From Candidatus Limnocylindrales bacterium (lineage in GTDB: Bacteria > Chloroflexota > Limnocylindria > Limnocylindrales > CSP1-4), in NCBI GenBank assembly GCA_025450915.1, contig JANWLH010000036.1, positions 1 through 44,070 of the forward strand: DNA of 44,070 bases. Direction: 5' to 3'. Below, in pieces: positions 1 to 37,638 of this stretch. The translations under genes and the position numbers were made by a program. The notes below the pieces were generated by a model. That model saw only the letters and a program-made list of their open reading frames with translations, made no database searches and was not told the origin of the DNA. Position 1 is the stretch's first letter, and each line of letters begins with the position of its first letter.

Positions 1-2
1 AC

Positions 3-242
3 AAGGCGATCCTCGCCCTGTCGGCGAAGATGTTCACGGTCCCGGGAACGCTGCCCGCCAAGACGTACGCGGCTCCGCCTGCGTCGAGCGGTGGCGGTGG
101 CTCGGGCGTCAGCAACTGCGCACCAGCTGCGACCCCGACCCCGAAGCCGACTCCCAAGCCGACGCCCCACCCGACCCCGAGCCCGTCGCCCGACGTCACG
201 GCGACCGTCAGCCCAAGCGACGAGGAGTCGTCTGGGCCGTAG
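3..242 (+). CDS. C-terminal fragment of a protein with a Pro/Thr-rich tail (5' end outside window)
   Basis: Open frame from the window edge, ...KAILALSAKMFTVPGTLPAKTYAAPPASS..., then PTPKPTPKPTPHPTPSPSP and a stop at 240-242. Confidence 0.5.
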   Translation, partial: KAILALSAKMFTVPGTLPAKTYAAPPASSGGGGSGVSNCAPAATPTPKPTPKPTPHPTPSPSPDVTATVSPSDEESSGP

Positions 243-282
243 CGGGTCGCGGTGTTTCCTCGGCGGACCTCGGATCCGCGAA

Positions 283-458
283 CTTCGTCGAAATGCCGCC
301 ACCAGGCGCCTTCGCGACAACCCGGGCTGGCTGAGGCCCGCGACTCCGGTCGGCGTGGGCGAGGCTGAGCACGGGTCCATCGGGAATCCCGTCAGTCAAC
401 GGCACCTGGGGGCTCGGCATCTCCGCAATGCGTCCCTGGGCGGCTTTCCTGCGAAGTC
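283..458 (+). repeat. Left copy of a 176-bp direct repeat
   Basis: Aligns without gaps to 1256-1431 at a constant offset of 973 bp; about 13 mismatches by eye. Confidence 0.93.
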
Positions 459-511
459 CGCAGTGAGGACGAGGCGATCGGCGCGTGAGGGCCGTGGCCT
501 AGCTTCGGGCA

Positions 512-1249
512 GTGGACGATCTCCGTTTTGGCCGGCTCGTCCGGGTTCTCAGGCACAAACGCGGATGGCGCCAGGCGGACCTCGCGGCCCGCGCCGGCGT
601 AAGCCGAACGATCGTTTCCGACATTGAGCACGGCCGGGCATCCCGGACGAGCATCGCCGTCGTGCGCCAGGCGACCGCGCCGCTCGAGCTCAGCGTGGAT
701 CTGGCCGCCCGGGGTCGTGGCGCCGATGTCGACCGCGTGCTCGACGAACGGCACCTCCGGCTGCTCGGGGCCGCGGCCCGCTGGCTCCGTGGTCTCGGCT
801 GGGCCACGATGGCCGAGGTCTCCTACTCGGAATGGGGTGAGCGAGGTTCGATCGATCTGCTCGCTTGGAACGAGCCAACTGCGACCCTGCTGGTCATCGA
901 GATCAAGACCGAGCTGGTCTCCGTCGAGGCGACCCTGCGCAAGCATGACGAGAAAGTCCGCCTCGCTCCGAGGATTGCGCGCGACCGATTCGGCTGGGTG
1001 GCTAGAGCGACGGCCAGGCTAATCGTGTTTCCCGACGATCGGACCGAGCGCGCCCGGATCGCTGCCCAGGCAGTTGTGCTCGAGGCGGCCTATCCCGTTC
1101 GCGCGTACGCCGCCCGGCGCTGGTGCCGGCTGCCAAGCGGCCCGTTCTCCGGCTTGCTCTTCCTCAAGGCTGATCCGGATTCGCGCGGGCGCCATTTGAG
1201 GGGCCCGCGACTCAGGGTTCAAAAGCCTCGAGAGGCCCGCGGGCGGTGA
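512..1249 (+). CDS. XRE-type HTH protein fused to a PD-(D/E)XK nuclease-like domain (copy 1)
   Basis: N-terminal HTH (WRQADLAARAGVSRTIVSDIEHGRA); C-terminal EVSYSEWGERGSIDLLAW...LLVIEIKTE resembles the E...D...ExK nuclease core; paralog of 15944-16738. Confidence 0.8.
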   Translation: MDDLRFGRLVRVLRHKRGWRQADLAARAGVSRTIVSDIEHGRASRTSIAVVRQATAPLELSVDLAARGRGADVDRVLDERHLRLLGAAARWLRGLGWATMAEVSYSEWGERGSIDLLAWNEPTATLLVIEIKTELVSVEATLRKHDEKVRLAPRIARDRFGWVARATARLIVFPDDRTERARIAAQAVVLEAAYPVRAYAARRWCRLPSGPFSGLLFLKADPDSRGRHLRGPRLRVQKPREARGR

Positions 1250-1255
1250 CCAAGA

Positions 1256-1431
1256 CTTCTTCGAAATGCCGCCACCAGGCGCCTTCGCGACAACCCGGGC
1301 TGGCTGAGGCCCGCGATTCCGGTCGGCGCGCGCGAGGCTGAGCACGGGCCCATCGGGAATCCCGCCAGTCAACGGCACCCTGGCTGTCGGCCTCTCCGCA
1401 ATGCGTCCCTGGGCGGCATTCCTGCGAAGTC
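1256..1431 (+). repeat. Right copy of the 176-bp direct repeat
   Basis: See 283-458. Confidence 0.93.
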
Positions 1432-1462: not shown

Positions 1463-3963
<2,501 letters not shown>

Positions 3964-15754: not shown

Positions 15755-15943
15755 GCGTCGTTGCTCCGGGCGAGTGGGCCGCGCCCGCCCGATCCTGGGG
15801 TTGGCGCCTTGGACCCGGGCGGCCCGAGTTGGTCGCGGCACTCTTTCGCCCTTTCCCGACCCGACCGCCCGGCCGTGCGGCCCTTGGACCGCGATTCTTC
15901 CGATCTACCAGCCGGTGAGGTGGTACGTGTGGATGCGCGTCGA

Positions 15944-16738
15944 TCAAGGTCGATCCGGGCCGTCTGATCCCAGGCCCGTGAGCAACTTCGCGCTCGCCCG
16001 GGCGTGATTCGATACAGGTTTGGGCCGCCGGACACGGTGCGAGCCCCGCGGTTCTTGCTTACGACCACGGGGATTGGTAATCCGGAAGAACAGCCGTCCC
16101 TGCAGGCTGCCCGATGGCGCCGCAAGCCAGCGACGCACGGCGATGTTCTGAGAAGGCAGCACCGAATCCAGAATCCGCGCATGCCGGGCGAGTTGATCGC
16201 GGGCCGTTGTCGACTCTGGCAGCACAAGGAGGCGGGAAATGCTCGTGGGCTGCCACTTGAGTTGATCCCGCGCGATGCCCGCCGCGAGACGGACCTTGGC
16301 ATCGTGGCGCCGGAGGGTCTCCTCGATCGAGGTGAGCTCCGTCTTCACCTCGATGACGAGCAGCGACCCGGTTCGAGGGTGGAAGGCCAGCACATCGACT
16401 GAGCCGCGTTCGCCGAAGATCGAATAGGTCACCTCGACGGCCCAGAGCCAGCCCATCTGTGCCAGGAGAGCGATCGTCGCGTCGATCAAGCGAGCATGGC
16501 CCTCATCGAGCATTCGATCGAGAGTTCCGCCCCGCCAGCGCACATCGATTTCGCATCGGGCATCGAGCAGGCCAAGGATGTGCCGCAGGGTGCGATTCGC
16601 AACCGTGTCGAGATGACCGCGCTCGATCGCCGAAACGAGTTGCTGCGATACGCGGGCTGCGGCGGCCAGGTCGGACTGGCGCCAGGCGCGCCGGCGGCGG
16701 AGGGCGCGGATGACCAGGCCGACGCGTCGATCGTCCAT
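15944..16738 (-). CDS. XRE-type HTH protein fused to a PD-(D/E)XK nuclease-like domain (copy 2)
   Basis: HTH (WRQSDLAAAARVSQQLVSAIERGHL) plus EVTYSIFGERGSVDVLAF...LLVIEVKTE; start at MDDRR. Confidence 0.82.
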   Translation of the reverse strand: MDDRRVGLVIRALRRRRAWRQSDLAAAARVSQQLVSAIERGHLDTVANRTLRHILGLLDARCEIDVRWRGGTLDRMLDEGHARLIDATIALLAQMGWLWAVEVTYSIFGERGSVDVLAFHPRTGSLLVIEVKTELTSIEETLRRHDAKVRLAAGIARDQLKWQPTSISRLLVLPESTTARDQLARHARILDSVLPSQNIAVRRWLAAPSGSLQGRLFFRITNPRGRKQEPRGSHRVRRPKPVSNHARASAKLLTGLGSDGPDRP

Positions 16739-29230: not shown

Positions 29231-29326
29231 GAGCCGGGGCTCGGCTTCCTACCCGTCGCGCAGAACAGGGCGTTTGCTGTTCCAGGAACACCACAGGACG
29301 GGCAGATCGACGAAGCGTGCCGGCGT

Positions 29327-29510
29327 GGGTACCCCATACCTCAAAACGGCGGTTTGCCGGCGAAAACCCAGGCGAAGGGGCGGGTGGGACTGCTCCAACG
29401 GTCCCGGCGCGAGCGTGGGCGGGAATGAAAATCCCAAGCGTCGACGCCGACTGGCCCTCGCGCGCGCCAAATCGGACTCCGGCAAGCAGGATTTGAGGTA
29501 CGAGGTACCC
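29327..29510. repeat. Inverted repeat pair, 19-nt arms, 184 bp overall
   Basis: 29327-29345 gggtaccccatacctcaaa vs reverse complement of 29492-29510 (gggtacctcgtacctcaaa), 17/19. Confidence 0.75.
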
Positions 29511-29551
29511 GCGCGGGCGGGGCGCCGGGCCACGAGCCCCAGCGAGGCGGG

Positions 29552-35143: not shown

Positions 35144-35482
35144 TCGTTCCAGTCAGCCTCCCGATGGACTCCGCCCGGTGCGATTCCTGTTCACGAGCAT
35201 CGGTGATGCGTGTTCGAGGTTGCGTCGTCGCGGCGCCAGCTCGGGTCCGTGCACGATCTGGTCGTCATGAGTTGTCGGCCGCCGCGGGGAGCCGGGCGTC
35301 GACCGTGGACGCAAACGGGCTCCGCTGAGATACTTCCGGAACGATCCATCGACAAGGCAAGCGCGTGCGGTCTTTGTAACGGTCGCCCCGGCCGCGCGCG
35401 GCCAATGGCGAGACCGGTCTGTCGGGATTAGTCGGCCAGCGCGTGTCCGAACGCGAGGCACGCCGGCCCAGGAGGTGCCCAG

Positions 35483-36664
35483 ATGGCATTTGTTGCAGCA
35501 CATCGCCGATTGCGTGCGGCGGCGCTCTTAACAGGCGTCGCCGTCGCCGCGCTCTCGCTCGCGGCCCCAGTCGCCGCCGCGGGTCCCGCAGGACTCTACG
35601 TCTCCAAGCACCACGGCAGCGATACGAATCCCTGCACGCATAGCCAGCCCTGCCTCACGATCAGCCATGCCGTCAGCGTTGCGCCGGCTGGGGCGACGAT
35701 CCTTGTCGGCAAGGGCACTTACCACGAGCAGGTCTCGATCACCAAGGACGTGACCCTCAAGGGCAAGCACGCAGTGATCGACGCGACCGGGCAGACCGGT
35801 GGCATCGAGCCCCTCGCGAGCATGGGCATCGTGGGCTACGGCCTGCTGGTGTTCGGTCCGGGCGCCAGCGGGACAACGATCGAGGGCCTCACCGTCGAAC
35901 ACGCCCTGGGCGAGGGCATCCTCGTGGCTGGGACCTCGAAGGTCTCGATCGAGGACAACACCGTCCGGCTCAATGACCAGGGCCTGAACACGACGGCAAC
36001 CTTCGAATGCCAGGCCCAGGGCGCTGTCCCGGGCGATTGTGGTGAAGGCCTCCACTTCATTGGGGTGACCTGGTCGCGGATCTTGGACAACGTCGTCGAG
36101 AACAACGTTGGCGGCATCCTGATCACCGACGAGATCGGCCCGAGCGCCCATAACGTGATCGCCCACAACATTGCTCGCAACAACAAGGAGGACTGCGGGA
36201 TCACCCTGCCGTCCCACAACGCGATGGCCGTGTCGGACCCGACGAAGGCCGGCGTCTACGACAACCTCGTCATCGACAACGTCTCGGAGGGCAACGGCGG
36301 CGCCGGCGTCGGCATGTTCGCGCCGTTCCCGGGAACCGCCTCGTACGACAACTGGGTGATCGACAACACCCTTCGTAACAACGGCGAGGCGGGTGTCGGC
36401 ATCCACGCCCATGCCCCGGGGCAGAACGTGTCGGGCAACGTGATCGTCGACAACAGGATCTCGGGCAACGGGGTCGATCCGGATTCGGGCAGCGGCCATC
36501 CCACCGGGATTGCCCTCTTCAGCGCCGCGGTGCCGGTGACGGTGGTGGTCGCCGACAACCACATCGCCAACGAGTACTGGGGCGTCTTCCGGAATGGGCC
36601 GCTCACGATCATCGGCCTCTCGACCAACCACTACGCGACGTCGGTGACCCACCACGTGAACTGA
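35483..36664 (+). CDS. Secreted right-handed beta-helix repeat protein
   Basis: Signal peptide; GLYVSKHHGSDTNPCTHSQPCLTISHAVSVA; repeated N/G/V/I rungs. Confidence 0.85.
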   Translation: MAFVAAHRRLRAAALLTGVAVAALSLAAPVAAAGPAGLYVSKHHGSDTNPCTHSQPCLTISHAVSVAPAGATILVGKGTYHEQVSITKDVTLKGKHAVIDATGQTGGIEPLASMGIVGYGLLVFGPGASGTTIEGLTVEHALGEGILVAGTSKVSIEDNTVRLNDQGLNTTATFECQAQGAVPGDCGEGLHFIGVTWSRILDNVVENNVGGILITDEIGPSAHNVIAHNIARNNKEDCGITLPSHNAMAVSDPTKAGVYDNLVIDNVSEGNGGAGVGMFAPFPGTASYDNWVIDNTLRNNGEAGVGIHAHAPGQNVSGNVIVDNRISGNGVDPDSGSGHPTGIALFSAAVPVTVVVADNHIANEYWGVFRNGPLTIIGLSTNHYATSVTHHVN

Positions 36665-37320: not shown

Positions 37321-37638
37321 CATCCTCCATACGACCGTCTTCGAGCGTCCGCCCCGCGGCGGGCGCTCGCTGCTGTCCAGCGCGCCTTCGCCGGCCGTCG
37401 CCTCGGGCGACTTGGGACGAATGTCGCCACCGGACGCACTACCTCCAGGTTCGAGTCGATCCAGCTCGTGCGAAGCCCGGTCCGAGCCGAATTCGTGCGT
37501 GGCGGCGGCCCAGGACGGCCCCCAGCCTCCCGATTCGAGGGAGAAGCTTCCATTACCGCGTCCGGTGGCGACAATCGTCCCAACCTGACGATCCAGCCGG
37601 CGGCACGCCGACGCCGGCGCCGCTACGGCCCGGACCCG

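Follow-up and report, generated by a model that had tools for sequence, protein, structure and literature searches.

An XRE/PD-(D/E)XK nuclease and a putative partner family of palindromic elements in a Limnocylindrales genome (Chloroflexota)

To our knowledge, the one class of enzymes with a firm link to dispersed extragenic palindromes in bacteria is that of the HUH tyrosine transposases. MITE copies normally have interiors in common. Rpn nucleases are PD-(D/E)XK enzymes, and we know of no report of an XRE domain or of cognate dispersed palindromes for them. These Rpn (YhgA-like) nucleases form a multi-copy family once filed as transposases (PMC5350276, PMC10327210). In the REPIN/RAYT (TnpA-REP) systems, short inverted arms lie around a spacer which is kept in length and not in sequence; the elements are mostly extragenic, and a genome holds several families, each tied to an adjoining enzyme gene (PMC3116915, PMC8266576). 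The REPIN spacer has been described as kept for its length and hairpin capacity (PMC3116915).

The window analyzed here, the whole stretch of 44,070 nucleotides of contig JANWLH010000036.1 from a Candidatus Limnocylindrales bacterium (genome G000), contains a nuclease gene between two direct copies of a palindromic element, R. We describe the architecture of R, its association with the nuclease family, its cognate dispersal in three genomes and its insertion differences between species. Like REPINs, R has inverted arms, a spacer of fixed length and a mostly extragenic placement, as seen in the type named R-B. Unlike RAYT, the enzyme accompanying R joins an XRE domain to a PD-(D/E)XK domain and is not an HUH/Y1 tyrosine transposase. 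R also differs from REPINs in that its arms reach into the 3' end of the gene, in element size (145-200 bp, many with a central box) and in number, with tens of copies and not hundreds.

The nuclease gene, its flanking repeats and the empty site

The preliminary description of this DNA had reported direct repeats of 176 bp at an offset of 973 with ~13 mismatches, a single credible gene between them, encoding an XRE/PD-(D/E)XK protein, and no visible transposase. Alignment of the two copies, named R-A, gives 177 bp at a constant offset of 973, with 92.7% identity, exactly 13 differences and E ~1e-72 within the locus; the nuclease gene is the only supported gene between them, and no transposase is found there. 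What had been missed is that the repeat itself is palindromic, with an architecture of its own, and is a cognate partner of the nuclease family. Each copy shows inverted 19-bp ends (ACTTCGTCGAAATGCCGCC versus ACTTCGCAGGAATGCCGCC, 16/19 matching) and TGAGCACG centered on its exact dyad (Table 1). The arm pattern has four matches in the window, all of them ends of the two copies, with a chance expectation of 0.08. Unlike the flanking copies of a composite transposon, which encode an active transposase, the R-A copies are non-coding.

No R-A copy beyond these two was found in the 70%-complete source genome or in 106 relatives, and a search of G000 with the arm pattern, allowing up to two mismatches, gave no additional copy; the suggested insertion beside an existing dispersed repeat does not agree with this distribution. 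Two matches to the repeat in relatives, one of 36 bp in the 3' end of recG (G057) and one in a transporter gene (G039), were set aside as probably due to chance.

The nuclease product matches HTH_31 (E=1.4e-11), with weak MmcB-like/UPF0102 matches besides, and shows no Rpn Pfam match. Residues E96, D109, E124 and K126 are 96-100% conserved among 125 homologues and correspond to the PD-(D/E)XK pattern, according to which the catalytic residues are predicted to be intact; the product thus holds both the catalytic D...E-x-K and an HTH domain. A structure model built from five sequences (mean pLDDT 68) places a mixed alpha/beta nuclease-like domain after the HTH helices, and a PDB fold search recovered the HTH alone and not the nuclease fold. 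Like Rpn, the window nuclease belongs to a multi-copy nuclease family, found in 97 of 107 related genomes with up to 13 matches a genome. Its N-terminal HTH fold is similar to restriction-modification controller and SinR/HipB-type XRE proteins; however, here the HTH is fused to a nuclease domain, and neither a methyltransferase nor a toxin partner was seen beside the gene. A phage or plasmid origin was rejected because the protein had zero matches in phage, plasmid and viral-contig collections, and a defense-system reading was rejected because PADLOC matches were confined to HTH domains.

The gap between E1-beta and E2 of a dehydrogenase operon, where the second family nuclease of the window is located, contains 18 family members (that of the window included) in both orientations. 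Such a pattern is consistent with, and no proof of, a mobile gene that may have been repeatedly inserted or inverted there.

An empty site occurs in G082, the nearest relative and a member of the same genus: the left gene and metX are direct neighbors there, their stop codons lie ~34 bp apart, and the site shows neither nuclease nor repeat. Since these neighbors are adjacent without gene or repeat, the R-nuclease-R block looks like a lineage-specific insertion, and by parsimony ~1.15 kb appears to have been gained in the window lineage. The left gene is also near metX in G004 and G005, which belong to another genus, and the nuclease is absent there. MetX proteins differ by ~16-21% across the genus, and neutral intergenic DNA of the genus is therefore hard to align. 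The mobile or recombining unit of the preliminary description is borne out in part, in that the block looks recently inserted and other elements of its type occur scattered through the genome.

Table 1. Features of the window discussed in the text.
Feature	Position	Strand	Remarks
Left-flank gene, 3' end, proline/threonine-rich tail	1..241	+	Homologous to L137, where the stop is ~34 bp from the metX stop
R-A copy 1 (177 bp)	282..458	.	5' of the nuclease gene; 93% direct repeat of 1255-1431; inverted ends
R-A1 left arm, ACTTCGTCGAAATGCCGCC	282..300	+	Arm pattern search
R-A1 central TGAGCACG	366..373	+	Center 369.5, exact dyad of 282-457
R-A1 right arm, ACTTCGCAGGAAAGCCGCC	439..457	-	Arm pattern search
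XRE HTH + PD-(D/E)XK nuclease gene, 245 aa, GTG start	512..1249	+	Domain matches, conserved residues, structure model
R-A copy 2 (177 bp)	1255..1431	.	Begins 6 bp past the nuclease stop codon
R-A2 left arm	1255..1273	+	Arm pattern search
R-A2 central TGAGCACG	1339..1346	+	At dyad 1342.5; pattern positions and sequence
R-A2 right arm	1412..1430	-	Arm pattern search
metX-like acyltransferase gene, right flank of the insertion	1463..2557	-	Pfam Abhydrolase_1; synteny in G082
Palindrome overlapping the 3' end of the second nuclease gene	15886..16099	.	Arms 16060-16099 and 15886-15925, 27/40
Second family nuclease gene	15944..16738	-	Between E1-beta and E2 genes; 44% identity
R-C, probable third R type	29319..29518	.	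Arms ~40 bp, unlike the others; GAGCGTGG 4 bp from the dyad
Solitary R-B element, 172 bp	37412..37583	.	Arms 26 bp; CGTGCGTG at the dyad

Palindromes of the nuclease family and their dispersed copies

Palindromes were surveyed around the 117 family members whose flanking DNA was long enough. A best-palindrome score of >=14 was reached in 40/117 members and in 14/151 control windows, and in 41/117 the left arm begins at gene nt 620-660, inside the coding 3' end. Palindromes of the same design, which start within the 3' end of many family genes, show TGAGCGTGG near their center. This motif was spotted by eye at dyads first and later confirmed by unbiased k-mer counts, in which the de novo k-mers most enriched just downstream of family genes are pieces of TGAGCGTGG. 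Its exact 9-mer was observed 10 times in nt 700-750 (0.16 expected), and CACGCTCA is present in 22/125 windows downstream of family genes versus 38/2290 windows. Direct repeats flanking the whole gene were found in 5/63 members at E<1e-5 and in 3/181 control genes (p = 0.03), although P values of family association overstate independence because the members are related. Besides the window, these whole-gene repeats are mainly those of L048 (132 bp, 90%), L049, L050 and L047, and an upstream R is present in a minority of nuclease members. Beside the nuclease genes at L100, L072, L068 and L060 there are also tandem repeats, the period of which is roughly 66-110 bp.

In the source genome, R elements with the same arms as a nuclease locus are scattered alone between genes. 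The nuclease named C15, which is the closest paralogue of the window nuclease (57%), has R-B arms on both flanks; the chance expectation for R-B-like elements, counted up to 300 bp from any one of seven nuclease genes, is 0.10. The R-B element of the window was found by scanning loci for solitary palindromes and is missing at the orthologous site in G082 and G083; both an R and the R-nuclease-R block are absent at orthologous sites of relatives. At the site of this element, G081 has an IS481-like transposase gene (L287, ~1922-2996).

At least 24 two-arm copies of R-B were aligned from the 70%-complete G000, 19 of them with a length of 170-173 bp, typically 171-172 bp. Mean pairwise identity is 74% in the arms and 34% in the interiors, and nearly all aligned copies show a CGTGC-like box at the dyad. 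Six spans lie more than 5 bp off ~171.5 bp (152, 161, 161, 181, 181, and 182) and deviate by about one or two helical turns, with a chance of such phasing of ~0.0005, calculated after the pattern had been noticed. Among 26 scored elements, 25 are clear of any predicted gene, and the genes on either side of 11 are convergent; these calls come from a crude gene finder which missed some real genes, the nuclease included, and neighbor orientations are therefore approximate. Interior self-complementarity is 0.331, versus 0.329 for mismatched elements, with a fold z of -0.38, and no element-specific covariation was found between the arms; unlike that of REPINs, the R-B spacer has neither hairpin capacity nor compensatory changes. 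Compared with shuffled sequences, one R-A copy folds somewhat better (z -2.15) and the other does not (z -0.40). A single-stranded hairpin reading was rejected, since only one R-A copy folds above shuffles and R-B interiors are unpaired. In 9/24 R-B copies (L280-L313), the triplet directly outside the arms reads AGG on one side and GAC on the opposite side, a hint that this near-symmetric element has an intrinsic polarity.

Cognate dispersal was examined in three genomes, G000, G007, and G100, the last two serving as independent tests. In G100, of another genus, the query was a palindrome overlapping a nuclease gene, picked in advance of the result. Inverted pairs of its arms were found at three other sites by search and at two further by sequence reading; the interiors are unrelated, and no nuclease was found near these solitary elements. 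The 132-bp flanking repeat of G007, a member of a different genus again, has inverted ends and at least three additional copies elsewhere, none of them near a nuclease, and no central box was noticed in this element. An orthologue of the G007 nuclease is present in G008 and G009, and G013 has a 42-bp empty site. As in REPIN/RAYT, G000 (C15), G007, and G100 each show an element beside its own enzyme gene together with matching dispersed copies.

A candidate nuclease-palindrome partnership and its alternatives

We give an even chance to a REPIN/RAYT-like partnership in which nuclease and palindromic element belong together and R-nuclease-R would be the complete unit. In this reading, R is a palindromic element, mostly 145-200 bp long, with inverted arms cognate to the locus of its own nuclease and, in the families studied in most detail, a GAGCGTG/CGTGC-like box at the dyad. 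R may be mobilized by the nuclease, which would bind both arms as duplex DNA, bridge them and cut them. Repair of the break would then copy R or R-nuclease-R into new intergenic sites, as in the RAYT proposal for REPINs, and recombination between two direct R copies could delete the gene and leave a solitary R. Duplex binding is suggested by a spacing kept to whole helical turns, which fits a protein complex that would hold the two arms on the same face of a DNA duplex, and a double-stranded two-site target by R-B interiors that do not pair, unlike those of REPINs. Nearly unrelated R-B interiors of fixed length fit long-kept functional sites and recent copying equally. Against mobilization, neither a transposition intermediate nor a junction read was observed, and R-A itself has two copies in the 70%-complete genome.

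More tentatively, and at somewhat under an even chance, this could be a new mobile or domesticated bacterial system, present throughout a Chloroflexota family, in which a PD-(D/E)XK nuclease has its own dispersed elements with two arms and a central box, recognized as duplex with helical phasing. It looks like a previously undescribed enzyme-and-repeat partnership which resembles REPIN/RAYT and is built on an unrelated enzyme, and no description of such a nuclease-palindrome pairing was found in the open PubMed Central literature. If true, such partnerships would have arisen more than once, here with a restriction-type nuclease that has palindromic elements of its own. The pair would also be a tractable system of two components, for which both sites and spacing are predicted, in which to ask whether the elements are selfish or useful, and would explain why a large group of uncultured bacteria has these repeats and nuclease paralogues.

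The main alternative, which we consider rather unlikely, is that R is a double-stranded platform for the HTH of the nuclease, serving regulation, chromosome organization or programmed recombination, and is kept as useful to the cell and not spread by the nuclease. The conservation of arms, center and helical spacing while interiors drift, the intergenic and often convergent placement and the lack of element-specific arm covariation would all suit such a platform; however, elements are gained at single sites in one lineage, the arms differ from nuclease clade to clade, and R lies on either side of an inserted nuclease.

It is clearly less probable that an unrelated transposase moves the R elements as ordinary MITEs, with the nuclease as a passenger in a MITE-bracketed cassette. 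As in MITEs and mobile insertion cassettes, R shows terminal inverted repeats and no transposase inside, and a gene is bracketed by two copies; the absence of coding capacity, the dispersal and the empty sites agree with this. In contrast to MITEs, R interiors are unrelated, the central box and helical spacing are conserved, and no parent transposase with these ends was noticed in the loci examined. Furthermore, the arms overlap the coding end of the nuclease in dozens of members, and no target-site duplication was seen by eye in the 12-nt flanks of the elements.

A local event, in which R would be the control region of the nuclease and R plus gene were duplicated in tandem before one gene copy was lost, is improbable: R-A is confined to this locus and tandem repeats are frequent upstream of these genes (9/63 nuclease versus 2/181 control genes), but the empty site of the relative also lacks R, and elements of this design are dispersed on their own, with no nuclease gene. 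Assembly artefact or chance similarity, for which one could cite a draft genome of 170 contigs with the locus close to a contig end, can practically be dismissed given 13 true differences between the copies, independent cases in other genomes and the extreme significance.

A conserved-RNA reading of the elements was rejected, as the only Rfam matches, two tRNAs and a borderline riboswitch, lie elsewhere. The last of these is a match to the c-di-GMP-II-GAG riboswitch at 35344-35428 of the window, which lies upstream of 35483-36664 and scores 40.8 bits (cut-off 40).
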